Source of the DNA: Robertmurraya massiliosenegalensis JC6
Lineage (GTDB): Bacteria > Bacillota > Bacilli > Bacillales > Cytobacillaceae
NCBI RefSeq assembly: GCF_000311725.1
Contig: NZ_HE978516.1
Span: forward strand, 46,837 to 110,836
Reading direction: 5' to 3'
Length of the DNA: 64,000 nucleotides
In this document: positions 25,036 through 43,272 of the stretch, one piece after another
Position numbering within the stretch: position 1 is the stretch's first letter
How the letters are laid out: every line of letters begins with the position of its first letter
The notes under the pieces: generated by a model
What the model was told of the DNA's origin: nothing
Seen by the model: the letters and a program-made list of their open reading frames with translations, nothing else
Database searches by the model: none
Made by a program: the position numbers and the translations under genes

Positions 25036-26307
25036 TTAATCGGAATTAGTCAAGAAAAAATATACTGGTTCATGACCAATTTCAATTATCCGCTTTTCTT
25101 TATCGTAAGGATTCAATCTCTTTCCAAGCATTGAAAATACTTGTCCCTCATCCTTTTTTAGCGGAAACTTTATTTCATGGTTTGAATCAACTGACCACAT
25201 GATATACAGTTCTTGCTCCTCGTCATTTATAAATTTTATTACATAATCATCCAAGTGATCAGTCTCGATTCTTTCCAATAATTGATAATTAGATGTCAAG
25301 TATGAAAATGTATTGATCGCCTCATAAGCTAATTTAGCATATGTGGTATCATGATGGCGGATTCCAAAATGATGCTCACCATTATGTTCATCTGTCCCAT
25401 CATTTTCCCAGCCATATATAACACTAATTGGGATGTCTTCCAACATATTCATGAGGATCATTCGAATAAGATAAGCAGCTTGTTGCTCTTCGGTTAAGTT
25501 CAATCCATACCAACCATTTCCTGTCGAGTACCCCCATTCTCCAGAAATGATCGGAATTGATTTCGATGAATACTTCTTTAATAATTCTTTTAAGTTTTTA
25601 TATTCGTAAGAGACCGTTTCAGGTGACCAAGAACGATATGGATGGACCGATAATGCATCGATATAGTCAAGAGCTCCTTCTTGAAATAATTGCTCTAACC
25701 ATGTTAATGATTCATCTGATAATCCAGCTAAAGCTGGGGCGACTACATATCCACTCCGATCATTTTCTTTTATGGTCGTAGATGTTTGTTTTAATAAATC
25801 ATAGTACTTTTTCGGAGACCATGATTGAATATTAGGTTCATTCCACACTTCCCAAATAATCCCCTTATTTTTATAACGCTCAGTTGCTTCTTTAACATAT
25901 TGATTAAATGCTTGCAGCCCCTCTTCAGTTTCAATCAGCGTCCCATCTTCTTCATACAGAAGATTGCTATAGTCCAGCACATAATAAGGCCTTATTCCTT
26001 TGCTAAGAAGCTCATATGTTAATTCATCGTATCCATTCGATTCAAATTCATACTCACCTTTCTCTTTTTCAATGGAAGACCAAAATAAGTCTGTTCTTAC
26101 AAGATCAAAATCCGCATCAGAAATCCTATCTATATCAACTTGCTTACCCGTAAAATGAATATTTATCCCGAGACCAGCCGGCGTCTCGACAGATCCAAAT
26201 TTCTGCATAAAATAGAGTGCTAGGCAGAGGAAAAGCAACACAATTACTATAAGGGATCGCCATTTTTTTATTGCCACACTAAATTTCTTGATTCCTTCTT
26301 TTTTCAC
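25036..26307 (-). CDS. Membrane-anchored clan-A glycoside hydrolase of the exopolysaccharide locus
   Basis: A 423-residue protein with an N-terminal membrane anchor (about residues 18-35) and an outside TIM-barrel glycosidase domain resembling families 5/39. The acid/base glutamate is probably E157 in WEVWNEPN and the nucleophile E257 in IISGEWGYS; ALSVHPYRSW is another family segment. As the last gene of the locus, it probably cuts or trims the exopolysaccharide, comparable in role to PslG of the Pseudomonas Psl system. Substrate is unknown. Confidence 0.8.
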   Translation of the reverse strand: MKKEGIKKFSVAIKKWRSLIVIVLLFLCLALYFMQKFGSVETPAGLGINIHFTGKQVDIDRISDADFDLVRTDLFWSSIEKEKGEYEFESNGYDELTYELLSKGIRPYYVLDYSNLLYEEDGTLIETEEGLQAFNQYVKEATERYKNKGIIWEVWNEPNIQSWSPKKYYDLLKQTSTTIKENDRSGYVVAPALAGLSDESLTWLEQLFQEGALDYIDALSVHPYRSWSPETVSYEYKNLKELLKKYSSKSIPIISGEWGYSTGNGWYGLNLTEEQQAAYLIRMILMNMLEDIPISVIYGWENDGTDEHNGEHHFGIRHHDTTYAKLAYEAINTFSYLTSNYQLLERIETDHLDDYVIKFINDEEQELYIMWSVDSNHEIKFPLKKDEGQVFSMLGKRLNPYDKEKRIIEIGHEPVYFFLTNSD

Positions 26308-26351: not shown

Positions 26352-26858
26352 CTATACCACTCCAATGCTTTTACAAAAATCAAAAAGGTTTTCTCCTTGA
26401 AATAAATAACCTTTCATTCCAATTGCTTTCGCAGCTAGCAGATCTGTAGACTTATCACCAATTAAAAAACTCTCCTGCAAATTAATTCTTCCGTTTGAAA
26501 GAGCCTTTTCAATTAACCCAGGTTTCGGCTTACGGCATTCACAATCACATGTATAAGCACTCGATCCTAAGAAAGGATGATGTGGACAATAATAGAAACC
26601 ATCTACTTTTTCACCAATGATTTGCTGGAGCTCATCATTCATCCACATATGAAGTTTCCTGACATCTTCTTCCGAATAAAAACCTCTCGCTACTCCTGAT
26701 TGATTTGTAATGACATAGAGCAAATAACCTTTCCTCTTGAACGAGCGAATACTCTCAATCGCTCCTGCCTTCCAGACAAAATCTTGAGCTCTGTATACAT
26801 AACCAAAATCTTCATTTAAGACGCCATCTCTATCAAAAAACACCGCCGGATATCGCAA
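26352..26858 (-). CDS. gmhB: D-glycero-D-manno-heptose 1,7-bisphosphate 7-phosphatase
   Basis: HAD-superfamily phosphatase of 168 residues. The nucleophile and acid aspartates are in FFDRDGVLNED (D9, D11). The GmhB zinc loop is seen in YYCPHHP and CDCECRKPKPG, and the magnesium aspartates in LIGDKSTDLLAA. It removes the 7-phosphate of heptose bisphosphate so that HldE can add the nucleotide. The related histidinol phosphatase is an alternative by family, but gmhA and hldE nearby settle the role. It overlaps the glycosyltransferase gene upstream by 26 bases. Confidence 0.92.
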   Translation of the reverse strand: MRYPAVFFDRDGVLNEDFGYVYRAQDFVWKAGAIESIRSFKRKGYLLYVITNQSGVARGFYSEEDVRKLHMWMNDELQQIIGEKVDGFYYCPHHPFLGSSAYTCDCECRKPKPGLIEKALSNGRINLQESFLIGDKSTDLLAAKAIGMKGYLFQGENLFDFCKSIGVV

Positions 26859-27990
26859 AAGATTCTCCTTTTTCTACATGATAAACAACATCTTCTACTC
26901 GAATAGTTGAGATACATCCATCTTGAATTGAACAATGATGCTCTTCAAATCCCAGGCTCAACAGCTTATCACACTGAACCCTTGGCGTAAGAACGACAGC
27001 CTTATTTGATACTGGTCCCCATCTTTTCGGTGATGTAGGTCCATGCAGTGCAATGATGCTAGTGTCTATCGCAGCTGCAAGATGCATAATACCAGTGTTA
27101 ACTGTGATCATAAGAATGCTCTCGCTGATCACAGCAGCCGTCTCTTCTAAGGAAAGTCTCCCTGCTACCGATAGGCAGTCATGTTCTTGAAGTGGACGAA
27201 GTCTTTGCACCACTGCCTCCGCCCGTTCAATATCTTCTTTTCCACCAGTTAAGATAATATTGTAACCTCTGGACATGAGCTGTTGGGCTAATTCTTCCCA
27301 TAACCGCATCGGCCATTCCTTCTTCTCTTTATGAGATCCTGATGCAAACATGTGGAAAACAATATACTGACTATTAGGCTGCAACAAGTCCTTAACGACT
27401 TTCTTGCTCTCTTCCTTTATTTTAAAAACAGGATGTTCATGATAAAGTCGACAAGGAATGATTTTTAGGAGACTTCTATAGTTCTCTAATTCATGTAGCT
27501 CATCAGAATGTTCAACAAAACGATCATAGATATAATGCCTAAACATCTTCGTTCGTTTAAAACCTATTTTTATTTCTGCTTTTATGACAAATGATAATAA
27601 TGCATTAAACCTTGCCCACGGGCCGAAATCCAATAACCAGTCTGCTTTAGGCAACTTTCGCAACATGAATAAACTTTGTGAAATTTTGCCCATATCTACA
27701 TCAATGATGTTGTCAACATCTGGATTATTCTTTGCTGCAAGTAAATTTCCCTTTGAACAAATGAGCGAGATGTTGGCGTGTGGATATTCCCGTCTTAACT
27801 CTTTGATCACCGAAGAAAGCAAGATTGTATCACCTATAGCAGCAATCATCACGATCACAATTCTTTCAGGATTCTCCATCCTGCTCCTATTTCTTTTTCT
27901 TAAGAGCCCTAATAAAAAAATCAACGGAATTCCTACGTATTTATCCAGTAATTTTAATTTCGAACTTCCCCGTTCTCCCAAACATGACAC
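26833..27990 (-). CDS. Family 9 (heptosyltransferase-like) glycosyltransferase
   Basis: A 385-residue GT-B enzyme of the ADP-heptose transferase family. The N-terminal part has IVIVMIAAIGDTILLSSVI. The C-terminal nucleotide-binding part has VAGRLSLEETAAVI and TVNTGIMHLAAAIDTSIIALHGPTSP, the typical GT9 signature. It probably transfers heptose from ADP-heptose to a lipid-linked or surface acceptor. The start is uncertain: a GTG at 27990 with a weak AAAGAAG site is the only reasonable choice. It lies between hldE and gmhB. Confidence 0.88.
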   Translation of the reverse strand: MSCLGERGSSKLKLLDKYVGIPLIFLLGLLRKRNRSRMENPERIVIVMIAAIGDTILLSSVIKELRREYPHANISLICSKGNLLAAKNNPDVDNIIDVDMGKISQSLFMLRKLPKADWLLDFGPWARFNALLSFVIKAEIKIGFKRTKMFRHYIYDRFVEHSDELHELENYRSLLKIIPCRLYHEHPVFKIKEESKKVVKDLLQPNSQYIVFHMFASGSHKEKKEWPMRLWEELAQQLMSRGYNIILTGGKEDIERAEAVVQRLRPLQEHDCLSVAGRLSLEETAAVISESILMITVNTGIMHLAAAIDTSIIALHGPTSPKRWGPVSNKAVVLTPRVQCDKLLSLGFEEHHCSIQDGCISTIRVEDVVYHVEKGESFAISGGVF

Positions 27991-28022
27991 CTTCTTTATA
28001 TGAAAAATTGGCAGTCGAAAGA

Positions 28023-29483
28023 TTAATTTGTGATTCTCTCAATTAAACTCGTCGTGGAATACCCGTCAACAAAGGATAAAATTTTTACTTTTTTAGCATA
28101 TTCTTTTCCCACAACTTCCTCTGCCCGATAATCTCCACCCTTTACAAGGACATCCGGCCTTATTTCTGAAATCAGACGAAGTGGAGTATCTTCATCAAAA
28201 ATGATCACTGCATCAACAAATTCAAAAAAAGACAGCATCTTCGCTCGATCCTGTTCATGATTAACTGGCCTATTTATCCCTTTTAAACGCTTAACAGATT
28301 GATCACTATTCAAGCCGATGATTAATTTATCTCCTAGCTCTTTCGCATTTTTAAGGTATGTTGCATGGCCAATATGAAGAAGATCAAAACAGCCATTTGT
28401 AAAGATAATTCGTTCTCCATTGTTGCGCCAACCATCTAGCAATGCTTGAAAATTGTTTGCGGAAAAAATTTTATTTATTTTTCTTCTATCGTTTAAAAAT
28501 TCCAGCTTCGAGATTAACTCCACATCCTTAACTGCGTAGGTCCCCAACTTTCCAACCACGATTCCAGCAGCGATATTAGAAATTTTCACCGCATCTTGAA
28601 CAGGAATTCCCATTCCCATCATCGCTCCGAGCGTGGAAACAACTGTATCTCCTGCACCTGATACATCAAAAACCTCCTTCGCTAAAGTCGGAAAATCATT
28701 GATTTGATTTTCTCCAACTAAACTCATTCCCTGTTCTGAACGCGTAATTAACAAATAATCAAGGTCGTACTTTCTCCTAAGTTCTTTCCCATAGTTATGA
28801 ATAGCTTGATTGCTATTAGGAATATCCTTTCCTCGTAAATCACTTAATTCTTTTAAATTTGGGGTGACAATGGTTGCACCCCTATATTTATCCCAATTGT
28901 CCCCTTTTGGGTCAATAATTACAGGAATTTCCTTTCTCTTTGCTGTAAATAAGACTGATTGACATAGTTCAAACTGACAAAAACCTTTGCCATAATCAGA
29001 AATAATAATTGCGTCGTACTTTTCGATGCTTAGTAGGTGCACGAACCACTCTTCAAACTTATGTACCCCAGCATCCGACAGTTCCACATTCTCTTCCTGA
29101 TCCATTCTCAATACTTGTTGATTCCCACTGATAATTCTTGTTTTGATTGTGGTAGAGCGATCGTCCGTCTGGATTCCCGATACATCAATCCCCTTGAAAC
29201 TTAGCATTTCTACTAAATCATCTCTTCCTTTATCTCTCCCGACTACCCCTGCAAGAGATACTTTGCAACCTAAATGAACAAGATTATTGGCGACATTCGC
29301 TGCGCCTCCTAAAGTTTGTGTCGCCTCTTTCAGGTTAACCACCGGAACAGGTGCCTCAGGTGAAATACGCTTCATTTCACCAAAATAATATTGGTCAAGC
29401 ATGACATCTCCAATGACAAGTACACGACAACTTTTTATTTTGCTTTGAAAACGTTGAATAATCTCGTTAATATTCCAGTTCAT
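28023..29483 (-). CDS. hldE: Bifunctional heptose-7-phosphate kinase / heptose-1-phosphate adenylyltransferase
   Basis: A fusion of two activities of ADP-heptose synthesis, about 486 residues. The N-terminal PfkB/ribokinase-like kinase domain starts VLVIGDVMLDQYYFGEM and ends with the anion-hole motif VSGAGDTVVSTLG. The C-terminal nucleotidyltransferase domain has TNGCFDLLHIGHATYL with the HxGH motif. I prefer the ATG at 29483, with GAGGA 8 bases upstream; several upstream in-frame starts overlap gmhA further. The Gram-negative enzyme makes the beta anomer of the ADP-heptose. Confidence 0.94.
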   Translation of the reverse strand: MNWNINEIIQRFQSKIKSCRVLVIGDVMLDQYYFGEMKRISPEAPVPVVNLKEATQTLGGAANVANNLVHLGCKVSLAGVVGRDKGRDDLVEMLSFKGIDVSGIQTDDRSTTIKTRIISGNQQVLRMDQEENVELSDAGVHKFEEWFVHLLSIEKYDAIIISDYGKGFCQFELCQSVLFTAKRKEIPVIIDPKGDNWDKYRGATIVTPNLKELSDLRGKDIPNSNQAIHNYGKELRRKYDLDYLLITRSEQGMSLVGENQINDFPTLAKEVFDVSGAGDTVVSTLGAMMGMGIPVQDAVKISNIAAGIVVGKLGTYAVKDVELISKLEFLNDRRKINKIFSANNFQALLDGWRNNGERIIFTNGCFDLLHIGHATYLKNAKELGDKLIIGLNSDQSVKRLKGINRPVNHEQDRAKMLSFFEFVDAVIIFDEDTPLRLISEIRPDVLVKGGDYRAEEVVGKEYAKKVKILSFVDGYSTTSLIERITN

Positions 29484-30057
29484 ATTCATTTTCCTCATCA
29501 ATCATTTCACAAATAATGTGTCCGATTAAAATATGAGCCTCTTGAATTCTTGCCGTATTGCTTGATGGGATCACGATACAACGATGACATATGTCCTTCA
29601 TTATCCCACCATCTTTCCCTGTTAACCCAATGGTAAGCGCTCCTTTATCATTTGCCCGCTTTATCGCCCTAATGATGTTGTCACTGTTACCAGATGTCGT
29701 AATTCCGATCACAATATCGTGAGGTTTCACAAGCGCTTCTATCTGTCTACTAAAAATTTCTTCGTAACCATAATCATTCCCTACAGCGGTTAAGATCGAG
29801 GTATCCGTCGTCAGCGCAATAGCCGGTAAGCCTTTTCTTTCTTTGACAAATCTGCCAACAAGTTCCGCCGCCAAATGCTGACTATCCGCTGCACTCCCGC
29901 CATTCCCCATGAAAAATATCGTATTTTTATGTTCAATCGCATCCTTACATAAATAGCTTATCCGCTCGATTTCCTCCCTTAAATTCTCTTCGATTTTTGC
30001 CATTACTTCTAAATGCTCCTGTAAAGCAGAATTGAATATCGTTTTGATAGAATTCAT
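29467..30057 (-). CDS. gmhA: Sedoheptulose-7-phosphate isomerase
   Basis: SIS-domain isomerase of 196 residues, converting sedoheptulose 7-phosphate to D-glycero-D-manno-heptose 7-phosphate, the first step of heptose synthesis. Visible are FMGNGGSAADSQHLAAELVGRF, the TSGNSDNIIRAIKRAND phosphate loop and a C-terminal EAHILIGHIICEMID with catalytic and metal-binding His/Glu positions. A GGGGAG site precedes the ATG. It follows a strong hairpin terminator after the flippase gene and overlaps hldE at its end. Confidence 0.95.
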   Translation of the reverse strand: MNSIKTIFNSALQEHLEVMAKIEENLREEIERISYLCKDAIEHKNTIFFMGNGGSAADSQHLAAELVGRFVKERKGLPAIALTTDTSILTAVGNDYGYEEIFSRQIEALVKPHDIVIGITTSGNSDNIIRAIKRANDKGALTIGLTGKDGGIMKDICHRCIVIPSSNTARIQEAHILIGHIICEMIDEENEYELEY

Positions 30058-30081: not shown

Positions 30082-30109
30082 AAAAAAAGAGACAGATGTC
30101 TCTTTTTTT
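30082..30109 (-). terminator. Strong hairpin inside the exopolysaccharide locus
   Basis: A 13-bp stem of AAAAAAAGAGACA / TGTCTCTTTTTTT with a 2-base centre spans the stop codon of the flippase gene. Only 24 bases separate it from gmhA, so there is no room for a separate promoter after it. The heptose genes must be reached by read-through, antitermination, or a promoter inside the flippase gene. Confidence 0.88.
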
Positions 30110-31577
30110 ACAGGGTACTTTTTTTATAGACTCGTTTTTTCATCAAGGCAAAATAACGCTTCCTCAACTCATTTAAAAGCAAACCATCATTTTTATAGTA
30201 TTCAATCATCATCACCATCGCTACATAAGTGATAGCTCCTATACTTATTTGCATAAGGGTCGTACCCACTCCTACGCCGCCATACACTCCAATCGCTCTT
30301 ACAACGATATACATGACAATGCCCGCAATAAAATAATCACTTGACTTCATAAAAATAGGCTTAAATGTAAATTCCTTTTTGATTGCAATAAATTGAACGG
30401 TGAGCACGAAAAACTCTGCTGCTAACGTAGAAATCGCCGCACCAATTGCACCATAATTTTTAATTAGAAATAGATTCAATACTAAATTGATGACTGCTCC
30501 AATATAAACGGATATATTATAAATTTTCATTCTACCTAGGGGCAATAAATATTGCGTTCCAAAGACTCCACTCCAAGCCATAAATAAAATGGTTGGACTA
30601 ATGATAAGTAAAATATCGATCGTTTGCTCAAACTCTTTCCCTAAATACCATGGGATAAATTCCGAAGAAATTCCGGCGAGCCCAAACATAATAGGGACGG
30701 CAATCATCGTCGAGAAATCAAGTGATTTATGAATATACCCTTTCACTTCCGCTATTTTTCCCGAGCTAAAGATATAGGCGATTTTCGGGAGCATAATCGT
30801 CCCTAAAGATGTGACAAAGGTTAGGCACACTTTCAACAATTTATCTGCATAATCAAAAAGTCCGACCTCAGCTTTCGTCGAAAAGACCCCGAGCATCGTC
30901 TTATTTAAGACAAAATAAATTTGGATGGCGATTAACGGAATGAAATAGACAAGTGTTGGTTTTAAATGACTAAGAATATCCGATAAAGCAATGGGTACAT
31001 ACGTAATATAATCTTTAATTCCTACCCAAAGGACAATTTGTCCTAGTAATGTTGAACCCGTCATAATCAGAGTATAGAGCGCTAAATCATCAGGATTCTT
31101 AACAAGAATAAAGAGCAAAATAATGCTGATTACTCTTACTACCGTGTTCCTTAACACAATGCTCTTAAATTTCTCAAGGCCTGTAAAAAACCATGTACAA
31201 TCCACTAAACAAGACAATAACGCTAGTGTTTGAAGATACATAATTAACTTACTTTCGTTTACTCCAAATAGAACAAATAAAACATAAGCAACGATCGCAA
31301 GCAGTGACATGGTGATTTGCAAAGAAAAAATACTAATGAATGTTTTACTTAATTTTTGCTTATCATCTCTAACTGTAGCGATCGTCTTACTTCCATAAAC
31401 TCCAATTCCTAATGTTCCCATTAAAATGAAATATTGGACAATTGAGCCTGAATAGGCAAACACCCCTACTCCGTTTGCTCCCAACACCCTCGATACATAT
31501 GGAACGGTCATTAGAGGAAATAAAACCATTATGATTTGATACATTAATTCGAATAAGTAATTTTTTCTTAGACTCAA
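30108..31577 (-). CDS. wzx: Wzx-type polysaccharide flippase
   Basis: A 489-residue membrane protein of the MOP/oligosaccharide flippase family, with about 12-14 predicted helices. The N-terminus (SLRKNYLFELMYQIIMVLFPLMTVPYVSR, here given in part) and MGTLGIGVYGSK match Wzx/RfbX proteins. It should move lipid-linked repeat units across the membrane for polymerisation by the EpsG-like protein. The presence of Wzx plus a polymerase and a Wzz-like protein indicates a Wzy-dependent assembly route. Confidence 0.9.
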   Translation of the reverse strand: MSLRKNYLFELMYQIIMVLFPLMTVPYVSRVLGANGVGVFAYSGSIVQYFILMGTLGIGVYGSKTIATVRDDKQKLSKTFISIFSLQITMSLLAIVAYVLFVLFGVNESKLIMYLQTLALLSCLVDCTWFFTGLEKFKSIVLRNTVVRVISIILLFILVKNPDDLALYTLIMTGSTLLGQIVLWVGIKDYITYVPIALSDILSHLKPTLVYFIPLIAIQIYFVLNKTMLGVFSTKAEVGLFDYADKLLKVCLTFVTSLGTIMLPKIAYIFSSGKIAEVKGYIHKSLDFSTMIAVPIMFGLAGISSEFIPWYLGKEFEQTIDILLIISPTILFMAWSGVFGTQYLLPLGRMKIYNISVYIGAVINLVLNLFLIKNYGAIGAAISTLAAEFFVLTVQFIAIKKEFTFKPIFMKSSDYFIAGIVMYIVVRAIGVYGGVGVGTTLMQISIGAITYVAMVMMIEYYKNDGLLLNELRKRYFALMKKRVYKKSTL

Positions 31578-31638: not shown

Positions 31639-32646
31639 TCACCGTAACATCATTCGATGATCGATCCTTTTCCAAATATATTCTGCCATCATCGATAACA
31701 ACGGATGAATTTTAAAGAGATTGTATTTGATTTTTCGATTCGTACTGAGTCCCACTTTGCCCCTACTTTCGAAAAATTGAATAAATTGCTTTCTTAAATT
31801 TTTATATACTTGCCGTTCTTCTGGACAGGAGCTCTTAATCAAATAGTAATCTACAAACAATAGATTTAAATAATGCTCATATGCCTTTTCATACAGATCT
31901 TCATACCCTTTTTCTTTAAAGTATTGGATTCTTTCCTGTAAAGCTTCTAATCTATCAAGTCTTTTTAAATTGAATTTCTGTCCCGTAATACTCGTATTCC
32001 TTTGGAGATAATAGTACATAGGGATAGATGTATATACCACTTTACTAGCATTATCCAATAAATGATGCATGATAAAGTCATCCTCATGAATTTTGCCCAC
32101 TTTAAACCTTACCCCATCAAATAACTCTTTCTTATACAATTTGTTCCAAACTCCTAAAGTAATATATTGAAGCTCTGTGTACAAATGATGTAACGTCTGA
32201 TGATTATTAAAAACAGAGATAGACTCCTTACCTGCATCGATTTCATCAAAAGACTGTTTCGTTGTCCCTTCATTTTCTTGAACGACAGAATAGCCACAAA
32301 TTGATATATCAGCACGATGCTCTTTTAAATTTTTATGCAATCGCTCATACATTCTTGGATGAATATAATCATCAGGGTCAACAAAGCAAATATAATCCCC
32401 ATTAGCTAATTCGATTCCTGCATTTCTAGCAGCTGATAAGCCGCCATTTTCCTGATGTTTGACGATTACTCTTTGATCTTGACAAGCGTATTGTTCACAT
32501 ATTTCGGCGCAGTTATCTGGCGAGCCGTCGTTGACTAAGATAACTTCTATTTTTCGATACGTCTGTTGTAAAATGGAATCTAAACATTTAGGAAGATACT
32601 CCTGAACCATATAGATTGGTACAATGACAGATATTAATTCTTCCAA
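31639..32646 (-). CDS. Family 2 glycosyltransferase
   Basis: A 335-residue GT-A enzyme. The catalytic domain starts ISVIVPIYMVQEYLPKCLDS, with VNDGSPDN and the metal-binding DPDDYIHP. The C-terminal half is helical and basic, without clear membrane helices. It is a close paralogue of the gene at 36183-37253 (both share a WNKLYK, HEDxF and YLQRxxS pattern). It probably adds one sugar to the repeat unit at the inner face of the membrane; donor and acceptor are unknown. Confidence 0.88.
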   Translation of the reverse strand: MEELISVIVPIYMVQEYLPKCLDSILQQTYRKIEVILVNDGSPDNCAEICEQYACQDQRVIVKHQENGGLSAARNAGIELANGDYICFVDPDDYIHPRMYERLHKNLKEHRADISICGYSVVQENEGTTKQSFDEIDAGKESISVFNNHQTLHHLYTELQYITLGVWNKLYKKELFDGVRFKVGKIHEDDFIMHHLLDNASKVVYTSIPMYYYLQRNTSITGQKFNLKRLDRLEALQERIQYFKEKGYEDLYEKAYEHYLNLLFVDYYLIKSSCPEERQVYKNLRKQFIQFFESRGKVGLSTNRKIKYNLFKIHPLLSMMAEYIWKRIDHRMMLR

Positions 32647-32693: not shown

Positions 32694-33710
32694 CTAATAA
32701 ACTAGAGCCGCTTTATTGAAAAGCCATCCATCATGTTGAACATACCAATTAATGGTTTCCATTATTCCTTTTTCAAATTGATAAATAGGTTTCCAACCAA
32801 GCTCCTTCGTTATCTTCGAATGGTCAATTGCATATCTCCGATCATGACCTAAACGATCCTCTGTGAAATGAATGAGACTTTCCTTTTTACCAAGAAGCTT
32901 AAGAAGCAGTTTAACCACTTCGATATTCTCCATTTCACTATTTCCACCAATATTATAAATTTCCCCTGCTTTTCCTTTATGCAATACTGCATCTATCGCT
33001 CGACAATGATCGTATACATGTAGCCAATCACGAATCTGCTTCCCATCACCGTAAACTGGCAATTTCTTGTCTTGAAGTGCTTGACTGATCATTAAAGGAA
33101 TTAATTTCTCAGGAAACTGGAAAGGACCATAATTATTGGAACATCTTGTTATATTTATCGGTAAACCATAGGTCTCATAATAAGCTCTAACGATCATATC
33201 TGCAGCTGCTTTTGACGCTGAATACGGACTATTTGGAGCGAGATTTGTCTCTTCAGTAAAAAATCCCTCTTTTTCCAATGTGCCATATACTTCATCTGTT
33301 GAAATTTGAATAAATTTCACGCCAGTTTTATATTGAATATTATTTTTTGTTGATAATTCCGTTTGCCAATTCTCTTTCGCCACTTCTAGTAAAATATTGG
33401 TGCCCAATACATTGGTCTGTAGAAAAATTTCAGGATGAGCAATACTACGATCAACATGCGTTTCAGCTGCAAAATGAATGACAATATCAATCGAGAATTG
33501 CCTAAATATCTGATTAAGCAAGGAGCGATCACCAATATCTCCTTTTATAAACTGATAATTCTTTTTATCCGGTAACCGCGTAAGATTAGTCAAATGGCCT
33601 GCATACGTCAATGCATCAAGATTAACAAGTGTATAATCGTACTTAGAAGCCATATATCTGATGAAATTCGAACCGATAAAACCGGCTCCGCCCGTAACAA
33701 GAATATTCAT
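32694..33710 (-). CDS. rmlB: dTDP-glucose 4,6-dehydratase
   Basis: Short-chain dehydrogenase-type enzyme that converts dTDP-glucose to dTDP-4-keto-6-deoxyglucose. About 338 residues. The NAD-binding motif GGAGFIGSNF is at the N-terminus; STDEVYG holds the Asp-Glu acid/base pair and YSASKAAAD the YxxxK pair. The ATG at 33710 follows AAGGGAAG; the frame extends to 33728 but without a site. It lies 7 bases after rmlA. There is no rmlC or rmlD, so the product goes to the FdtA/FdtB branch rather than to rhamnose. Confidence 0.95.
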   Translation of the reverse strand: MNILVTGGAGFIGSNFIRYMASKYDYTLVNLDALTYAGHLTNLTRLPDKKNYQFIKGDIGDRSLLNQIFRQFSIDIVIHFAAETHVDRSIAHPEIFLQTNVLGTNILLEVAKENWQTELSTKNNIQYKTGVKFIQISTDEVYGTLEKEGFFTEETNLAPNSPYSASKAAADMIVRAYYETYGLPINITRCSNNYGPFQFPEKLIPLMISQALQDKKLPVYGDGKQIRDWLHVYDHCRAIDAVLHKGKAGEIYNIGGNSEMENIEVVKLLLKLLGKKESLIHFTEDRLGHDRRYAIDHSKITKELGWKPIYQFEKGIMETINWYVQHDGWLFNKAALVY

Positions 33711-33717
33711 TCTTCCC

Positions 33718-34629
33718 TTACCCTCCATTCATTGAGGAATAGGCTAAAGAATACTCCTCAACCGTGCTATCAGCTAGTTCCATTAAATATTTTCCGTAAT
33801 CTGTTTTCATAAGTGGGTAAGCTAATTCCATTAATTCCTGCTTCGAAATATATCCTTTTCTATAAGCAATTTCTTCTATACAGGCGATATACATTCCCTG
33901 CCTTTTTTGGATGACCTCAACAAAATTTGAAGCATTAAGAAGGGATTCATTTGTCCCCGTATCCAACCAGGCTAATCCTCTCCCTAGCACCTCTACTTTC
34001 AGTTTTCCCCTTTGTAAATATTCATTTAGAATAGAGGTTATCTCTACTTCTCCCCTTGAAGATGGCTGAACCTTTTTCGCTATTTCAATCACCTTGTTAT
34101 CAAAGAAGTATAACCCTGGAATCGCAAATTTAGATTTTGGCCTTTTTGGTTTTTCTTCAATCGAAATTGCTTCCCCATTGTCCCCTATCTCGACCACTCC
34201 ATATGCGCTCGGATCGTTCACATAACAGCCAAAAATAATACCCCCTATTTTCAAGGAGGTAGCATTTTCAATGAAATCAATAAAATTTGTTCCGTAAAAG
34301 ATGTTATCACCCAAAATTAAGGCGACGGAGGAATCTCCTATAAATTCTTCTCCGATTATAAAAGCTTCTGCTAAACCATTCGGTTTTTCTTGAATCGCAT
34401 ATTCAATCATTAACCCTAAATGGCGACCATCGCCAAATAATTCTTTAAACCCACCTATATCGCGCGGCGTAGAAATTAAGAGGATTTCTTTAATTCCAGC
34501 AAGCATTAAAATAGATAATGGATAGTAGATCATCGGTTTATCATATATAGGCAAAATTTGTTTTGAAACAGCTTTTGTTAACGGATATAGTCTTGTGCCA
34601 GAGCCTCCAGCTAAAATGATTCCCTTCAT
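33718..34629 (-). CDS. rmlA: Glucose-1-phosphate thymidylyltransferase
   Basis: Makes dTDP-glucose from dTTP and glucose 1-phosphate. The 303-residue protein has the nucleotide-binding loop [17 protein letters not shown] and other RmlA segments ([30 protein letters not shown]). It is the first step of the dTDP-sugar branch and is adjacent to rmlB. The glucose 1-phosphate is shared with the GtaB reaction encoded in the same locus. Confidence 0.96.
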
Positions 34630-34651: not shown

Positions 34652-35746
34652 TCAGCCTTTGTATTGATTTGCCGTAGTCACAACATGTTCAATCTGTTCT
34701 CTAGTCATAACTGGATACAGCGGCAAACTGACAACTTGCTCTGCTAGCAATTCAGTTAGCGGTAACCTTAAATCATTTAACTCTACATATGCTTCTTGTT
34801 TATGAGGAGCAATTGGATAATGAACGAGCGTACTGACCCCATTGGCATTCATATAGGCCTGAAAATCTTGGCGCTTCTCCACTCTTATTACAAACAAATG
34901 CCATACATGACTTTCTTCGTCATCAGGAAAATTCGGTAGGACCAAATTGGGATTTTGTATATGTTTACAATAATAACGTGCTATTTCTCTTCGCTTGGCA
35001 TTATCTTCATCTAAATATGGTAATTTCAATCTTAATAAACCAGCTTGTATCTCATCTAAACGGCTATTGACCCCTTTCTCACGATTCAAATATTTAATTT
35101 GCGAGCCATAGTTTCTTAACGCTTTAATTCTGGAAGCAAGTCCTGTATCATCTGTTGTGATCGCTCCACCATCTCCGAAAGCTCCAAGATTTTTCCCAGG
35201 ATAAAAACTAAATGCAGCGGCATCACCAAGACTTCCAACCCTTCTTCCACTGAGTTTGGCTCCATGTGCTTGCGCTGCATCTTCAATTATTTTCAATTGA
35301 TATTTTTGTGCTAATAACCAAAGCTGCTCCATTTCAACTCCACGTCCATATAAATGGACTAATAATATTGCCTTTGTACTTGATGTAATCGAGCCTTCAA
35401 TTAATTCCACATCGAGATTATAGGTATCTTCATTTGGTTCTATTATAATCGGCTTTGCACCAGTGGCCGTAATCGCTAAAATCGTTGCAATATAAGTATT
35501 TCCTGGAACAATTACTTCGTCGCCCTCTGTTATGTTATATCCCCTTAAAATTAACGTTAAAGCGTCTAATCCATTTCCAACACCAATGCAATGCTTAGTT
35601 CCACAATAACGAGCGAATTCTGACTCAAACATATTCACTTCATTGCCTAGAATATATTGACCATCATTTAAGAAGTGTGTAAAAAAATCTAGAGCTTCCG
35701 TTACATACCTATCATTTAAAGACTTTAAATCAAGAAAGTTAATCAT
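34652..35746 (-). CDS. fdtB: dTDP-3-keto-6-deoxyhexose aminotransferase (FdtB/QdtB type)
   Basis: PLP-dependent DegT/DnrJ/EryC1 sugar aminotransferase, 364 residues. The Schiff-base lysine is in [17 protein letters not shown], and EDAAQAHGA is the cofactor-binding Asp segment; the N-terminal part has [16 protein letters not shown]. Directly preceded by an FdtA-like ketoisomerase gene (8-base overlap), it most likely installs the 3-amino group of dTDP-3-amino-3,6-dideoxyhexose. Galacto or gluco form (Fuc3N or Qui3N) cannot be told apart here. Confidence 0.88.
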
Positions 35747-36155
35747 GGATTATCTCCTTATCTCGAACTAGATTGATGAAATCATCATAGCTTCTTACAT
35801 AGTCTTCAGCTTTATAATAAGCATCGGCTAACACCAACAAAACACAGTCCTTAGAGAAGTCCTTCATTTCTCGCCAAATAAAACGTTCAATCAGTAATCC
35901 TTGGTTTGGACTACTTAAATGGAACTCCCTTTTATCCAGCCCGTCATCTAACATAATCGTACAGGACCCGCTTACACAGATAAGCACTTGCTTCAACTCT
36001 TTATGAGCATGGCCTCCTCTAGTTAAATTTTGTTTATTGCCAAAAATATAATAAACCCGTTTGATCGCAAATGGGATATGAATATTTTCCTCAATGGATA
36101 CTAAACAACCTCTATCATCTGAATATTCAGAGAAATTAACCACTGCTTTTTCCAC
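35739..36155 (-). CDS. fdtA: dTDP-4-keto-6-deoxyglucose 3,4-ketoisomerase (FdtA/QdtA type)
   Basis: A 138-residue cupin of the WxcM-like family that shifts the keto group from C4 to C3 of the dTDP-6-deoxyhexose. Family segments are [21 protein letters not shown], in part, with the active-site histidines, and [17 protein letters not shown]. FdtA and QdtA differ in the stereochemistry at C4. I cannot decide between them from the sequence alone. Translational overlap with the aminotransferase gene supports a joint pathway. Confidence 0.87.
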
Positions 36156-36182: not shown

Positions 36183-37253
36183 CTATAACATTAAAAATAT
36201 ATTTAGCTCACTAAAAAGAACTGGACTTATCAGCATCGTGTTCGTACTTTTATTTCCAACACCGCTCTTCTGTGTTTTCATCATTTGCCATGTATTCATA
36301 CATACCTTATACAAAAGAGGATTATACTTGAAAAGACTATATTTAATCTTCACATTCATCGGTAAATCGTGTAAATGCTCACTTAATCTTCTATATTTTT
36401 CTTGTAACCCATGTAATATCCATACTTCCTTCGGGAAAAATTTCCGCACTAGAAAATAGTGTTTCGGCAGCATATTTAAATAATCATCGAGCGTTTGATT
36501 ATATAATCGTTGAAATCCTCGCTCTTGAAAAAATAGCATCCTTTCTTCTAAAGCCTCTAAAAAATCCAATCTCGTTAAATTGAATTTCTTTCCCATAAAG
36601 CTGGACTTTCTTTGCAAATAAAAGTATAACGGTAAATTGGAATACACAACTTTAGATGCCCGATCTAAAATTCGATGGACAATAAATTCATCTTCATGCC
36701 ATTTGCCCGTTTTAAATCGTAAGCTATTAAATATTTCTCTTTTGTACAACTTATTCCACACGACAATATTTTCAACATGTAAATCTCCATATAATGTTTC
36801 AAGTATCTCCTGTTCTTCATAAATCTCTATATGCTCATTTTCGATTTTTTTCGCTGCAAAGGGTTCGTTTATTTCTTCCTCTTCATATACGTATTGAAAA
36901 CTACTAACTGAAATATCTGCCTCATAATGGTGTAAGTTTTTATACAAGATTTCATATAATTGATGATCGACATAATCATCACAATCGACAAAAGCAATAT
37001 AGTTTCCTTCTGCCATATCTAGTCCTTTGTTCATTGCAGCTGAAGGACCTCTGTTCTCCTGATAGAAGATTCTTATCCTTTGATCTTTCTCGGCATATTT
37101 TTGACAAATATGCAAACTATCATCTAAAGATCCATCATCAATTAGTATTAATTCAAAGTGGGGATAGCTTTGATTCAGAATGGATTCAATACACTTCGGT
37201 AAGTACTTCTCGCTATTGTAAACGGGTACGATTACTGAAATTAAATCTCCCAT
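36183..37253 (-). CDS. Family 2 glycosyltransferase
   Basis: A 356-residue GT-A enzyme. The catalytic domain starts ISVIVPVYNSEKYLPKCIES, then IDDGSLDDS and the metal-binding VDCDDYVDH. It is a close paralogue of the enzyme at 31639-32646, including the C-terminal pattern around WNKLYK, HEDEF and LQRKSSFMGKKFNLTRLDF. The tail after about residue 325 differs from that paralogue. Cytoplasmic face of the membrane; sugar specificity unknown. Confidence 0.87.
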   Translation of the reverse strand: MGDLISVIVPVYNSEKYLPKCIESILNQSYPHFELILIDDGSLDDSLHICQKYAEKDQRIRIFYQENRGPSAAMNKGLDMAEGNYIAFVDCDDYVDHQLYEILYKNLHHYEADISVSSFQYVYEEEEINEPFAAKKIENEHIEIYEEQEILETLYGDLHVENIVVWNKLYKREIFNSLRFKTGKWHEDEFIVHRILDRASKVVYSNLPLYFYLQRKSSFMGKKFNLTRLDFLEALEERMLFFQERGFQRLYNQTLDDYLNMLPKHYFLVRKFFPKEVWILHGLQEKYRRLSEHLHDLPMNVKIKYSLFKYNPLLYKVCMNTWQMMKTQKSGVGNKSTNTMLISPVLFSELNIFLML

Positions 37254-37281: not shown

Positions 37282-38307
37282 TTATGTCCTTTGTTGAATA
37301 TTGATATTTCGAAAGATATGAATCAATAAAGGCAATAATTTGATTTTGTATAAAAACAGCTTAATAGAAAGGCGCATGTCTCGATATGGATGAAAATAAT
37401 AGATTTTTTTTAACGAAATAGGTTTTAAAAGAGATTCAAAAACATGTATTAAATCTTTAGAGTTTTTAATGACATGAACGGATGAACTGTATTGTGATAA
37501 AAGTTTTTTCGAACAGTAATAGTCATACTCGTCTTCAAATGATTCATACAGCTGCTCTTGAATCAAAATTTCTTTCACTCTTTTAATCGCAATGGTAAAG
37601 TGTTCGATATTCCGAATGCTTTTCGTATGTGTAATCGAGTCTTGATGTTGAACATAATGATAGAGTATTTGATTCAAATATAGACATGTATTTATTTTCG
37701 TGAGGATCGAAAAGATCATCGGAATATCCTCATAAGCCATATTTGGATACGTAATTTGATTTTCAATAAGAATACTTCTCTTAATTAATTTATTAAAGGA
37801 AAAGCCTTCTACTAACTCATGATCATGACATAAAAACAGCCTTACAATTTCTTCTCTTGTCATGATTTTTTGATCATATTCCGAATGGTCTTTATTTTCG
37901 ATGACCCTTCCTGTCACATCCACTCTGTTCCAATTGCAAATAACGATGTCGACTTCATTCTGAATCGCTCCGTTGTACATCTGCTCCACCATATTCGGTT
38001 CAATAAAATCATCCGAATCAACGAAGGCTAAATAATCACCTGTAGCATGCTCTATCGCTCGATTTCTCGCTATTGCCTGACCACGATTCTCTTGATTTAG
38101 GAGAATCATATGGTCGAATTCTTCTTCCAATTTTGTTAATATTTCAAAGCTGCGGTCTGTTGAGCCATCATTCACGACAATAATTTCAATATCCTCCACC
38201 GTTTGATTTAGGACGCTTTCCATACATTGAGTTATAAATTTCTCACTATTAAAAACCGGAATAATGATGCTCACCTTTACTCGTTTCACTGGTGTTCCAC
38301 CTACCAT
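37282..38307 (-). CDS. Family 2 glycosyltransferase
   Basis: About 335-341 residues. The GT-A domain has VSIIIPVFNSEKFITQCMES, VVNDGSTDRS and the metal site VDSDDFIEP. The C-terminal half is a helical region of the type found in capsular and exopolysaccharide glycosyltransferases. Start choice is open: an ATG at 38307, or a GTG at 38289 with TAGGTGG 7 bases upstream, which I find better. It lies between the GT4 gene and another GT2. Confidence 0.87.
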   Translation of the reverse strand: MVGGTPVKRVKVSIIIPVFNSEKFITQCMESVLNQTVEDIEIIVVNDGSTDRSFEILTKLEEEFDHMILLNQENRGQAIARNRAIEHATGDYLAFVDSDDFIEPNMVEQMYNGAIQNEVDIVICNWNRVDVTGRVIENKDHSEYDQKIMTREEIVRLFLCHDHELVEGFSFNKLIKRSILIENQITYPNMAYEDIPMIFSILTKINTCLYLNQILYHYVQHQDSITHTKSIRNIEHFTIAIKRVKEILIQEQLYESFEDEYDYYCSKKLLSQYSSSVHVIKNSKDLIHVFESLLKPISLKKIYYFHPYRDMRLSIKLFLYKIKLLPLLIHIFRNINIQQRT

Positions 38308-38330: not shown

Positions 38331-39443
38331 TCATGCTTCTCCCAATTCCTTAAATAGTTTTTCAAATTCTGGGATCACGGCCTCAAAAGAAAATTCATTT
38401 GCCCTTTTTTTCCTCTCATGTTCATGATGTAATCTGTTTTCATTATTTAATGTTTCAACTATGTTCAAGGCGAGGGATTGATGATCCCTTACTGGTGACA
38501 AAAGCCCATATTTTCCATCAGCGAGGATTTCCGCTGGTCCACTTGGACAATCTGTTGATACGACAGGGATTCCAACGGCTAATGCTTCCGCCACCACCAC
38601 TGAAAACCCTTCATAAATGGAACTAAGTGCAAACACATCAGCTGTACGTATATAAGCGTAAGGATTATGAACAAATCCTTTTAACTCGACACTGTCCTCC
38701 ACCCCTAATTCTTGAATCAAGCTCTCTAAACATCGTCTTTGGGGACCTTCTCCCAATATGACTAACTTCGTTTTCACATGATGTTCTAATAAATATTTAT
38801 GAGCCTTAATAAGATCATCAAACCCCTTCATCTCAGTCAACCTACCTATCCCCAAAATGACAGGTTCTGATGTAGATAGATTCGTCACTTTCTCATCCAT
38901 CATTCGCTCAATATCCTTAATTCTTACAGGATTATAAATTCGTTTAACAGGGACATTTACTTGTGGAAACATCATCTCGAACGATCTTTTCACACCATTT
39001 GAAACCGCAATAATAGTAGTTAGTTTTCTATACAGCCTATTAATCAAGAACCGATGCACGGTTTCATTCGTTTTCGGATATTTTCGAACATCGATATGCA
39101 CCCAGCCAATCGCTGGCTTGTTCGTTATAATAGAGGCAATTGCCGCCAAATAGGTTGGCGTCATTTCGAGAGAACCGACGATTCCATCTACTCGTTTAGC
39201 AGCCTTTAAAACCATTCGAATGACTTTAAAAGGATGAAAATAACTCTTCTCTTTTCCTGTTAATACCTTTATTACTTCAATATCTCTCGGTACCGCTTCG
39301 GTTAATTCTCCAAAATAATGGATGATCAAAATGGATGGCTCAAATCGCTCTTTATCCAAATGGCGAATGACATCCAACGTCACCCTCTCAGCCCCTCCAC
39401 CTTGGAGACTCTGCATAATAAATAAGATTTTTTTCTTTTCCAA
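38331..39443 (-). CDS. Family 4 glycosyltransferase
   Basis: A 370-residue GT-B retaining glycosyltransferase. The N-terminal domain begins ILFIMQSLQGGGAERVTLDV. The C-terminal donor-binding domain has GIGRLTEMKGFDDLIKAH, LGEGPQRRCLE and the E(x7)E motif in SSIYEGFSVVVAEALAVGIP. Similar enzymes transfer GalNAc- or galactose-type sugars in capsule loci, but specificity cannot be read here. It directly follows the frameshifted GT2 gene. Confidence 0.88.
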   Translation of the reverse strand: MEKKKILFIMQSLQGGGAERVTLDVIRHLDKERFEPSILIIHYFGELTEAVPRDIEVIKVLTGKEKSYFHPFKVIRMVLKAAKRVDGIVGSLEMTPTYLAAIASIITNKPAIGWVHIDVRKYPKTNETVHRFLINRLYRKLTTIIAVSNGVKRSFEMMFPQVNVPVKRIYNPVRIKDIERMMDEKVTNLSTSEPVILGIGRLTEMKGFDDLIKAHKYLLEHHVKTKLVILGEGPQRRCLESLIQELGVEDSVELKGFVHNPYAYIRTADVFALSSIYEGFSVVVAEALAVGIPVVSTDCPSGPAEILADGKYGLLSPVRDHQSLALNIVETLNNENRLHHEHERKKRANEFSFEAVIPEFEKLFKELGEA

Positions 39444-39460: not shown

Positions 39461-40464
39461 TTATCTCTTTCGATAATTTCTAGCCATTAAAAAAACAACT
39501 GTATAGACAGTTGCAACAAAGCTATCCCCCAATCGATCCATTCTCTTTACATAGTTATTACCGAATCGATTCTTGAAATAATCGCTGTTCTTTTTTAAAT
39601 GCGGATTATTTTTCCAATCATAAAAATATTTGTACAAAAGTTCCCTCGTTCCTTTCATTTTTTTATAAAAACCAATAAAGTTAAATTGATAATATTTTAG
39701 TTGACGATACATATTGGGCCACATGAGAATCTTTATATATTGATAACATAGGCCATCAGCGTTTTTTTTGAAAACGCATGATTTCCAACATAAAAATGAT
39801 GCGTATCTTCCAACATTTCATATATATCATTAATTTTAGGTGAAATCGTCGTTAGCAAGCTTCCTGCTCGGTTTTTCCGATACTTATAAAGTGGTTTATT
39901 AATATAAACATAGTCTTTTACATAATAAAGCAACTTATAAATGGTTCCAACGTCTTCATAAAGTTTTCCCTTTGGAAATTTGATCTGTTGAAAAAAAGTT
40001 GCTCGATAAACTTTGTTCCACGCACTTGGTTGCACAGTCCAAATTTCGTCAGCGAGTTCTATTCCCTTCACAACATTCTTATAGCCATCATCACCCACAT
40101 CCATCCAATCAAAGATAACTAAGTCTGGGTCAGATTTTAAGGCTGCCATCACTTCTGAAAAATAGCTGATATCAACATAATCATCACTATCAAGAAAAGT
40201 CACATGTTGATAGTGAATAAATTGAAGACCATAATTTCTTGCATCTGACAAACCCCCATTTTCTTTATAGACATACTCTATCTGTTCGTATTTTTGGGCA
40301 TACTTTCTAGCTATCTCTCCAGACTGATCAGTTGAACCATCGTCAACAAGAATAAGCTGGATGTTGCCCCGATCTCCCATACTATCAAGAACAGAACGTA
40401 AACAATGAGCAAGATAGGTTTCAACATTATAAATTGGAATTACAACACTTAATCCATCCATCAA
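39461..40464 (-). pseudogene. Family 2 glycosyltransferase interrupted by a frameshift
   Basis: Two consecutive reading frames together make one normal GT2 of about 334 residues. The first (40464 to 39733, 243 residues) holds the catalytic domain with VVIPIYNVETYLAHCLRS, VDDGSTDQS and LDSDDYVD, and ends abruptly at LMAYVINI. The second frame (from about 39750 to 39461) continues with YIKILMWPNMYRQLKYY and ends in RNYRKR. A single missing base near 39745, in AATATATA, explains the break. The N-terminal domain may still be made; the C-terminal part has no good start. A sequencing error is possible. Confidence 0.8.
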
Positions 40465-40477: not shown

Positions 40478-41593
40478 CTAAATTAAAAACGAATAGGGCA
40501 CAATCCCGTGCACGTTTATTAGCAATCTGAGCACATAATACAAGATCCAAAAAGCAATGATCAGAAAAACGAATAGCTGATCCAGCAGTTTCTTTTTATT
40601 TAATAAGTGATGAATTAAATAGGCATAGAAATAAATATTGAAGCAAGAAAAATAAATTTGCAATCGATCTATGGCCTCTATTCCAGCAAGTGCATATAAC
40701 CATAAATTAATAATGACTGCATTCATGCTAAATATATAAAGTTTGTAATTTATGTTTAAATGCTCATTGAATTTGGGTATATAAAGGGCGATGCTAACAA
40801 TAATCATTTGGATCATGACTGGGATTAATTGAATGAACCCTTTTTCCTTATTTACACCAAAAAAAACGTATCCGCTCGCATATTTCTCTCCATACGATCC
40901 AGCAATAGAGATCAGTAATTCACCAATACTATTCTTAACCGATGGTAAAAAATAGAGCACAATCGTGACGAAAAATAGGGGAATCACCAGCTTTGGGCTC
41001 CACTGTTTTCTAGGAATTACGATTAACACAAACATGAAGATCGCACTATCATGAAAGAGCATAGCTATCAGGATGACAAAGATATATTTGAGCCGATCGA
41101 GCCTCTTTTCAGAGCTAACTAGATGAGCGAAACAGAATATAATCGAAACTGCGACTAATTGACGGACTTGATTAAAGCTATTGAAATAAATATGCATGAT
41201 AATAAATAGGAAAATACTAATTAAATAGTTCGGTGTATTCTTTTTAACAGCATAAAAAATGAACAGTAAAAATAGAGAATAAATAATGGTAGAGAACACA
41301 TAAAAACTATTATATTTATCTGCTAGATGATAAATATAACTAATCCCAGGCTCAAGTAATCCAATATATGTTTTATGCATGAAAAAACTGATATACATAG
41401 GATAGTCTACGCCAACTTCAGCACCTTTAAATGCAGCTAAAAAGAGTAGTATCATATACCAGATCAATAAAACACCATTATTTTTGAACAAAAACCCTTC
41501 ATTTCTATCTCCGATTGCATCATTTATGATCGTAATTCTCGAAAGGAATAAACAGTACAACATCGCTATTGTAAGAATAAAATATATCAGCAT
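40478..41593 (-). CDS. EpsG/Wzy-like polysaccharide polymerase
   Basis: A 371-residue multi-helix membrane protein with about ten predicted helices. It resembles the EpsG family (FLAAFKGAEVGVDYPMYISF near the N-terminus, FNSFNQVRQLVAVSIIFCFA in the middle). EpsG proteins are thought to polymerise lipid-linked repeat units. The locus encodes a Wzx flippase and Wzz-like protein but no other polymerase candidate, which supports this role. The start codon is followed by a typical hydrophobic N-terminus. Confidence 0.85.
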   Translation of the reverse strand: MLIYFILTIAMLYCLFLSRITIINDAIGDRNEGFLFKNNGVLLIWYMILLFLAAFKGAEVGVDYPMYISFFMHKTYIGLLEPGISYIYHLADKYNSFYVFSTIIYSLFLLFIFYAVKKNTPNYLISIFLFIIMHIYFNSFNQVRQLVAVSIIFCFAHLVSSEKRLDRLKYIFVILIAMLFHDSAIFMFVLIVIPRKQWSPKLVIPLFFVTIVLYFLPSVKNSIGELLISIAGSYGEKYASGYVFFGVNKEKGFIQLIPVMIQMIIVSIALYIPKFNEHLNINYKLYIFSMNAVIINLWLYALAGIEAIDRLQIYFSCFNIYFYAYLIHHLLNKKKLLDQLFVFLIIAFWILYYVLRLLINVHGIVPYSFLI

Positions 41594-42334: not shown

Positions 42335-43225
42335 TCAATTTACCCCCTTTTGAGACTTTTCCAAAGCAACTTTGTCTACTATATATTCTAAAATTTCGTC
42401 TTTTAATTCTTCTCTTTGCAGTGCAAATTCTAGCATCGTTAAGATAAATCCTATTTTTTCTCCAACATCATATCGTTTTCCTTCAAATTCATAAGCAAAT
42501 ACACGTTGAATTTCATTAAGCTTTTGAATCGCATCAGTCAACTGGATTTCTCCGCCAGCTCCAATTTCTTGTTTTTCTAGAAATAAAAATATCTCTGGGG
42601 TCAGAATATATCGACCGATAATCGCTAAATTGGATGGTGCTGTTCCAACGGAAGGTTTTTCAACAAAATGACGTACGGCATAACGATTTCCTAATTGCTT
42701 ACTTGGTTCAATAATGCCATAACGATGTGTCTCATGCTCTGGTACAGTTTGAACCCCAATAACAGAAGAAAGCGTTTTTTCATACTCGTTCATTAATTGT
42801 TTTAAACATGGGATTTCAGCCTGTACGATGTCATCTCCTAATAACACTGCAAATGGCTCATTGCCAATAAACTTACGTGCACACCATATGGCATGCCCTA
42901 GCCCTTTTGGTTCCTTTTGCCTAATATAGTGAATGTCTACTTTCGATGGGGCTTGAACCTGTTCTAATAATTCATATTTATTTTTTTCCATTAAATTATT
43001 TTCAAGTTCAAATGCATTATCAAAATGATCTTCTATTGCTCGTTTTCCTTTTCCTGTAACAATAATAATATCCTCAATTCCAGAGGCAATGGCCTCTTCG
43101 ACAATATATTGAATCGTTGGCTTATCAACAATTGGAAGCATTTCTTTCGGCATTGCCTTTGTTACGGGCAAAAATCGCGTTCCAAGTCCAGCAGCTGGAA
43201 TAATCGCTTTTCTAATCTTTTTCAT
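42335..43225 (-). CDS. gtaB: UTP-glucose-1-phosphate uridylyltransferase
   Basis: Makes UDP-glucose, about 296 residues. The N-terminal motif is [31 protein letters not shown] (in part), followed by [28 protein letters not shown] and [24 protein letters not shown] 43225 is preceded by GAGGGAG; an open frame to 43270 adds a non-conserved N-terminus and overlaps the region after the kinase gene. Bacillaceae usually also have gtaB elsewhere, so this may be a locus-dedicated copy. Confidence 0.95.
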
Positions 43226-43272
43226 ATCTCCCTCAACCCTCTTCTTAATTTCTTTTCCTAGTAGCGTCACCT

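Follow-up and report, generated by a model that had tools for sequence, protein, structure and literature searches.

A putative epimerase-free heptosylation cassette in an eps-type exopolysaccharide locus of a Gram-positive bacterium

Introduction

What would a Gram-positive bacterium do with the enzymes of the ADP-heptose pathway, which in Gram-negative bacteria serves lipopolysaccharide (LPS)? The question is raised by a stretch of 64,000 nucleotides from Robertmurraya massiliosenegalensis JC6 (contig NZ_HE978516.1, positions 46,837 to 110,836; the window in what follows), in which genes for a sedoheptulose-7-phosphate isomerase (GmhA), a fused heptose-7-phosphate kinase/heptose-1-phosphate adenylyltransferase (HldE), a GT9 glycosyltransferase and a heptose-1,7-bisphosphate 7-phosphatase (GmhB) lie together within an eps-type exopolysaccharide locus, at its 3′ end. 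Judging from sequence, we consider it probable that these four genes form a heptosylation cassette, which adds D-glycero-D-manno-heptose to the polymer made by the locus. The kinase domain of HldE would make the beta-1,7-bisphosphate, from which GmhB would remove the 7-phosphate, and the ADP-heptose donor would stay unepimerised, because no gene for the epimerase HldD was found in the genome. The GT9 enzyme would then transfer D-glycero-D-manno-heptose onto the polyprenyl-linked repeat unit, which a Wzx-type flippase would flip and an EpsG/Wzy-like protein would polymerise.

The four genes and their products

All four open reading frames (ORFs) are present on the minus strand, as the original prediction had claimed: gmhA at 29467..30057 (196 amino acids), hldE at 28023..29501 (492 amino acids as called), the gene for the GT9 enzyme, a putative heptosyltransferase with an N-terminal extension and a VNTG motif, at 26833..27990 (385 amino acids), and gmhB at 26352..26858 (168 amino acids). 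They had been described as adjacent and overlapping, which holds for two of the three junctions, gmhA/hldE (35 nucleotides as called) and GT9/gmhB (26 nucleotides), and fails for hldE and the GT9 gene, which are 32 nucleotides apart. The true start of HldE is probably an ATG inside the called ORF, slightly downstream, so the real gmhA/hldE overlap may be smaller. The same gene order recurs in four other genomes with 54–73% protein identity, and the GC content of the cassette (0.387) is close to that of the other long ORFs in the window (0.396; 0.357 for the whole eps locus); on these sequence grounds the cassette is not a product of chance or contamination.

Family membership was judged with NCBIfam and Pfam models and their curated cut-offs, matches to PDB structures and alignment to the Escherichia coli K-12 enzymes, the residues being compared, in E. 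coli numbering, across five cassette copies (the window and four relatives). Both domains of HldE pass their models, the kinase with 359.5 bits for TIGR02198 (cut-off 345) and the nucleotidyltransferase with 189.2 for TIGR02199 (cut-off 181.5), and they match PDB entries 4e84 (242.9 bits) and 5x9q (105 bits); the full-length equivalog NF008454 is narrowly missed (517.1 versus 521). Residues D264, H353, G355 and H356 and the motifs GAGD and HxGH are intact in all five copies, which agrees with the claim that HldE is of the ADP, beta type. GmhB passes the beta-type model TIGR00213 (154.2; cut-off 149.6), misses NF006506 (155.3; cut-off 178), lies far under the alpha-type model NF050049 (125.9; cut-off 250) and matches PDB 3l8e with 122.4 bits, and its D11, D13, C92, H94, C107, C109, R110, K111 and D136, comprising the HAD and Cys/His residues, are kept in every copy. 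GmhA reaches 208.2 bits for NF010546 (cut-off 276), 199.6 for TIGR00441 (cut-off 209.45) and 193 against the phosphoheptose isomerase 1tk9, and its H61, E65, Q172 and H180 are kept in all five copies, while F97 varies. We take the listed residues of the three enzymes, and the two HldE motifs, to be catalytic.

The nucleotidyltransferase motif of the window HldE reads FVDGYSTT, and all five copies carry Tyr at the site where the STTR5 HENase has Arg. According to the available parts of two commentaries (PMC11461863, PMC11573728), Arg at position 5 of (F/L)XXGXSTT marks CDP/UDP promiscuity, and the former states that it is not strictly required. Promiscuous formation of CDP- or UDP-heptose by the cassette HldE is not predicted, the Arg being absent from every copy.

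Epimerase, GDP-heptose and LPS genes

The original prediction noted that the window holds no HldD, which is right and extends to the whole genome, where a profile search gave no match over the cut-off and four below it, all SDR enzymes. The best of these, at 129.6 bits, proved to be GalE (432.6 bits for TIGR01179; cut-off 262.3). The six genomes examined, the five with the cassette and one with a divergent kinase (G259), likewise gave no HldD over the cut-off, and the short-chain enzymes encoded after gmhB in three of the relatives (G059, G052 and G365) all pass the GalE cut-off and not that of HldD. The HldD model works in this phylum, since six of eight further phylum genomes with HldE pass it, as does a G1274 protein, from the same class as the window.

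Neither hddA nor hddC was found in the genome: the best HddC match scored 49.9 bits against a cut-off of 300, and the only two GHMP kinases found, as candidates for HddA, are IspE and ThrB. A GDP-heptose route was rejected on this profile evidence. LpxC, which acts in lipid A synthesis, was found in none of the six genomes and in all four distant HldE carriers tested, which, together with the gene content, fits the claim of a Gram-positive host. As an observation in its own right, two of these four, the LPS-type G749 and G773, may also use unepimerised heptose. The LPS of Coxiella, in the available part of PMC5843353, is a precedent for D-glycero-D-manno-heptose replacing the L-glycero form.

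Distribution and related clusters

The distribution was counted in overlapping samples of the family, order, class and phylum, each including the genome under study. The HldE kinase is over its cut-off in 4 of 193 family, 2 of 397 order, 1 of 398 class and 14 of 398 phylum genomes, and at an E-value of 1e-60 in 3/397, 3/398 and 41/398 genomes of the order, class and phylum, respectively. In the family, GT9 (PF01075, E 1e-12) occurs in the same four genomes as HldE, one copy in each; the chance of its picking these four is 1.8e-8, a figure that ignores shared ancestry and transfer. G259 was left out of the cassette count, its kinase scoring 207.8 bits, below the cut-off.

The order gmhA–hldE–GT9–gmhB is common to the eps-type clusters of the window and of G182, G059, G052 and G365. 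The clusters of the relatives also have glycosyltransferase and Rml genes in common with the window, and likewise GalU, a polyprenyl glycosylphosphotransferase (PGT) and EpsG wherever the retrieved sequence extends far enough (not in G182). G182, of the same genus, has the same downstream flank as the window, a PslG-like gene and yugI. Contamination is listed as 10 percent for G052 and 5 percent for G059, and in both the cassette is embedded in an eps cluster of the same build.

A gene resembling CMP-Kdo synthetase lies upstream of gmhA in all four relatives, scoring 232–250 bits for NF009905 (cut-off 255); the G182 copy passes NF003952, and the best PDB match is 1gq9. The genome under study has no such gene above 62 bits. 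In G182 this gene is followed by those for a 541-residue HMGL-type aldolase (93 bits against 3dxi), a HAD phosphatase, a PIG-L deacetylase and a GNAT protein, and G059, G052 and G365 have ORFs of like size and order at that site, few of them scanned. None of these four genes is in the window's locus, the rest of the genome not having been searched for them. From sequence, the block may serve to make a CMP-activated ulosonic acid by way of an unusual aldolase. It occupies L033:7496-12351 in G182, with like-sized ORFs in L034, L037 and L041, and an MptE-like (PF01973) protein is encoded before the CMP-Kdo-synthetase-like gene in G182 and G059.

Two further members of the class, G1274 and G1085, have other heptose sets, in which kinase and nucleotidyltransferase are separate, with GT9 and sugar genes around them. 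The G1274 cluster (L125:7533-12405) contains gmhA, gmhB, hldD, the separate kinase and nucleotidyltransferase genes and GT9 near CDP-dideoxysugar genes (RfbH, CDP-glucose dehydratase); by gene content it is separate from the cassette, and it has an epimerase.

Plasmid relatives and trees

Beyond the class, the four genes occur in the same order as in the window (gmhA–hldE–GT9–HAD, the last being gmhB) on plasmid NZ_CP126146.1 of Sagittula sp. MA-2, downstream of a sugar transferase gene with one small gene between. Its GT9 is 34.5% identical to that of the window and shares the VNTG motif; the reading frame continues upstream of the annotated start, where it encodes an ERGN stretch resembling the ERG(N/S) stretch near the N-terminus of the cassette GT9s (in the window, ERGS). 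Sagittula differs in being a diderm alphaproteobacterium, and its block is followed by a polysaccharide pyruvyltransferase gene. A Rhizobium plasmid carries hldD, a pyruvyltransferase gene, hldE, GT9 and HAD close together; its HldE ORF (L117:9276-11993), between the pyruvyltransferase and GT9 genes, is unusually long (905 amino acids), possibly with an extra domain. HldE- and HldD-like ORFs also stand side by side (L120:2183-4632) in the 5.5-kb faecal clone MT838225.1, which is labelled as phage and flagged as unverified. A contig scan for relatives returned one, a metagenome-assembled genome of Arcobacteraceae. As to whether the cassette came from a Bacilli plasmid, HldE matched 60 plasmid records, and none from Bacilli covered more than 63 percent of the query.

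The five cassette copies group as a single clade (100/100) in a tree of HldE kinases with 49 rows, and this clade joins a group of 11 phylum rows weakly (96/57), several rows being long-branched. These nearest relatives, the G795-type clusters, belong to the same phylum as the window and differ from it in their order, GT9–hldE(kinase)–hldD–gmhB, in an HldD-like ORF beside HldE in all 11, and in LpxC, present in both group genomes tested. That the cassette stems from LPS-bearing members of the phylum is possible, with tree support of 96/57 only. A GT9 tree of 21 rows places the cassette copies with Sagittula and Rhizobium (87/86), on a branch that is not starred.

A broader reading, which we hold tentatively and think doubtful rather than probable, is that a portable, epimerase-free cassette, recognisable by GT9s with ERG(N/S) and Asn in place of WaaC Asp261, has passed between diderms and monoderms and places D-glycero-D-manno-heptose in matrix polysaccharides; that the matrices of the four relatives, in which the cassette adjoins the CMP-Kdo-synthetase-like gene and an aldolase, contain the two sugars typical of the LPS inner core, or near analogues of them; and that the cells hold an ALPK1 ligand without LPS. 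The Sagittula match suggests that the cassette may be a mobile unit for exopolysaccharide diversification across the diderm/monoderm divide.

The GT9 glycosyltransferase

The GT9 enzyme passes the gathering score of PF01075 (141.2 bits; threshold 22) and matches heptosyltransferase II (PDB 1psw) with 74.1 bits. Residues D13 and K192 of WaaC are conserved in all six cassette GT9s (those of the window, the four relatives and Sagittula). At the site of WaaC Asp261, all six have Asn, whereas none of 17 other aligned GT9s does, all carrying Asp. It is possible but unproven that this Asn marks enzymes for an unepimerised donor, and we treat it as a lead. The Rhizobium GT9, clustered with hldD, has Asp and fits the idea; G1085 does not fit, since Asp is present in both of its GT9s and the 19 kb examined of its 19.5-kb contig showed no recognisable HldD. 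A literature search on WaaC Asp261 and Lys192 found nothing relevant.

Weighing the alternatives

Several observations weigh against heptosylation by this cassette. The strictest cut-offs are missed by GmhA and by full-length HldE, and in the alignment check suggested for HldE the main residues stood and positions 351, 354, 465, 466 and 467 vary. The GT9 enzyme is below all six listed equivalog cut-offs for LPS heptosyltransferases (score/cut-off 110.1/185.3 for I, 103/134.6 for II and 104.2/170.2 for III), is only 20–24% identical to E. coli WaaC, WaaF, WaaQ and WaaU, and has Asn where all four carry Asp, and for these reasons its donor or acceptor may differ. The four family genomes that share HldE and GT9 are not independent events, because the cassette is shared by descent or transfer. 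Lastly, an epimerase of another family could exist, and lack of HldD is not confined to loci of this kind, since the LpxC-bearing G749 and G773 likewise have HldE and no HldD over the cut-off.

The sequence of the GT9 enzyme thus leaves room for another donor, or for a heptose altered before transfer by an unrecognised enzyme (to an L-glycero or deoxy form), and the other SDR enzymes of the genome, with their four sub-cut-off matches to the HldD model, could be read the same way. We regard this as unlikely, given that among the 193 family genomes GT9 was found only in those bearing HldE, that its gene lies between hldE and gmhB, that D13 and K192 are kept, and that the window's locus showed no recognisable additional gene for modifying heptose. 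A different destination for the ADP-D,D-heptose, namely an S-layer glycoprotein, a teichoic-type polymer or a glycolipid, is suggested by the presence in the same locus of FdtA/FdtB-type amino-sugar genes, of a kind used in S-layer glycans, and by the listing of beta-D-glycero-D-manno-heptose among the S-layer glycan sugars of Gram-positives in the available part of PMC2943079. We think this quite unlikely, as the locus combines Wzz, tyrosine kinase, PGT, EpsG polymerase and Wzx with a SinR/SlrR-like regulator, a gene set typical of matrix or capsule polysaccharides; of the locus genes scanned, none was recognised as an S-layer gene or an oligosaccharyltransferase, the rest of the genome not having been searched. 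That the cassette is a recent acquisition, now decaying or silent, would suit its patchy occurrence (HldE in 4/193 family and 2/397 order genomes, own genome counted in both) and is very improbable: all four frames are open with their main active-site residues intact, the GC content resembles that of the other window genes, and same-genus G182 retains the cassette at the same yugI flank. For the proposed heptosylation cassette, we infer the enzyme activities, the GT9 donor and the heptose in the polymer from these combined observations, and D-glycero-D-manno-heptose in a matrix polysaccharide appears to be the reading that fits them best.

Comparison with known systems

With the Gram-negative LPS pathway (GmhA, HldE, GmhB and HldD, with WaaC/WaaF), the window shares the first three enzymes, their conserved active sites, the predicted ADP/beta chemistry and a GT9; it departs from it in the absence of a recognised HldD or LpxC, in the eps-type setting and in its GT9, which is below every LPS equivalog cut-off and has Asn at WaaC 261. 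Gram-positive S-layer glycans built from GDP-heptose, through HddA and HddC, offer a second parallel: there too a surface glycan is expected to carry D-glycero-D-manno-heptose, and FdtA/FdtB-type genes occur. The window differs in having the ADP/beta-type HldE rather than HddA and HddC, and an eps-type locus rather than an slg cluster. Septacidin biosynthesis in Streptomyces resembles our prediction in that ADP-heptose is made in a Gram-positive, although, according to the available parts of PMC11461863 and PMC11573728, that heptose serves a nucleoside antibiotic and not a polysaccharide. The same commentaries describe these heptose enzymes as widespread in bacteria, with septacidin named, and Streptomyces according to the former.

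Novelty is tempered by published heptose pathways in some Gram-positives (PMC10269868, as far as its available part goes), by the heptose known from S-layer glycans (PMC2943079, likewise) and by the LPS-bearing HldE genomes that also lack a recognised HldD. Among the matches listed, in a search of titles and abstract openings that covered few subscription journals, none dealt with genes for ADP-heptose in an exopolysaccharide locus of Bacilli. What appears new, from the sequences compared, is the co-occurrence of HldE and GT9 in the family, the recurring gene order including Sagittula, the Asn mark of the GT9s, the absence from HldE of the Arg linked to CDP/UDP promiscuity, and the CMP-Kdo-synthetase-like gene of the four relatives.

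If the proposal is true, an ALPK1-active nucleotide sugar would be made in LPS-free Gram-positives as a building block of the biofilm matrix, the matrix chemistry of Gram-positives would gain a rare sugar, enzymes acting on unepimerised ADP-D,D-heptose might be obtained from the GT9 subfamily, and host sensing of such bacteria through ALPK1 would become a testable question. The relevance to ALPK1 would follow from ADP-heptose chemistry, as treated in the available parts of the commentaries PMC11461863 and PMC11573728. Release of ADP-heptose or heptose phosphates, which the original prediction had suggested, and their sensing by ALPK1 are speculation.

The surrounding locus

The cassette lies near the end of a 21-gene minus-strand run, from 45153 down to 25036. 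The run opens with a SinR/SlrR-like regulator (44761..45153; HTH_3 58.7 bits; 76.4 for NF046032 SlrR, below the cut-off of 250), a Wzz chain-length determinant (43949..44734; PF02706, 73.9 bits), a tyrosine autokinase (43273..43974; TIGR01007, 200.1 bits, cut-off 108.05), GalU (42335..43270; TIGR01099, 395.3, cut-off 326.8), the PGT (41630..42334; PF02397, 207.3) and the EpsG/Wzy-like polymerase (40478..41593; PF14897, 131.8). Glycosyltransferases follow, GT2 enzymes at 39733..40464, 37282..38307 and 36183..37253 (PF00535; 112.3, 136.3 and 136.4 bits) and a GT4 at 38331..39443 (PF00534, 135.7). After the sugar genes come another GT2 (31639..32646; PF00535, 137.3) and the Wzx-type flippase (30108..31577; PF01943, 97.4). 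PGT, Wzz with its kinase, polymerase, flippase and glycosyltransferases thus occur together, as in a Wzx/Wzy-type exopolysaccharide locus, which bears out the original prediction on this point; such a gene set is typical of loci for matrix or capsule polysaccharides.

The sugar genes encode an FdtA/QdtA-type dTDP-sugar 3,4-ketoisomerase (35739..36155; PF05523, 169.2 bits; PDB 2pa7, 150.5), an FdtB/QdtB-type aminotransferase (34652..35746; PF01041, 362.1; the name FdtB is by position), a nucleotidyltransferase (33718..34629; PF00483, 237.1) that is presumably RmlA, going by position and recall, and RmlB, a dTDP-glucose 4,6-dehydratase (32694..33728; TIGR01181, 496.8, cut-off 365.1). The ketoisomerase carries Arg where FdtA (2pa7) has His following Trp, a change that points to the QdtA type, with Qui3N instead of Fuc3N, and the sugar would therefore be 3-amino-3,6-dideoxyglucose. 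No N-acetyltransferase for a Qui3N-type sugar was recognised in the locus.

Beyond gmhB, the run ends with a PslG/GH39-like glycoside hydrolase with a hydrophobic N-terminus (25036..26307; Pfam Cellulase 51.3 bits; PDB 5jvk 86.3, PslG 44.2), whose counterpart also adjoins gmhB in G182 (61% identity) and which likely acts on the polysaccharide of the locus. In closing the locus, it resembles matrix glycosidases that trim their own polysaccharide.

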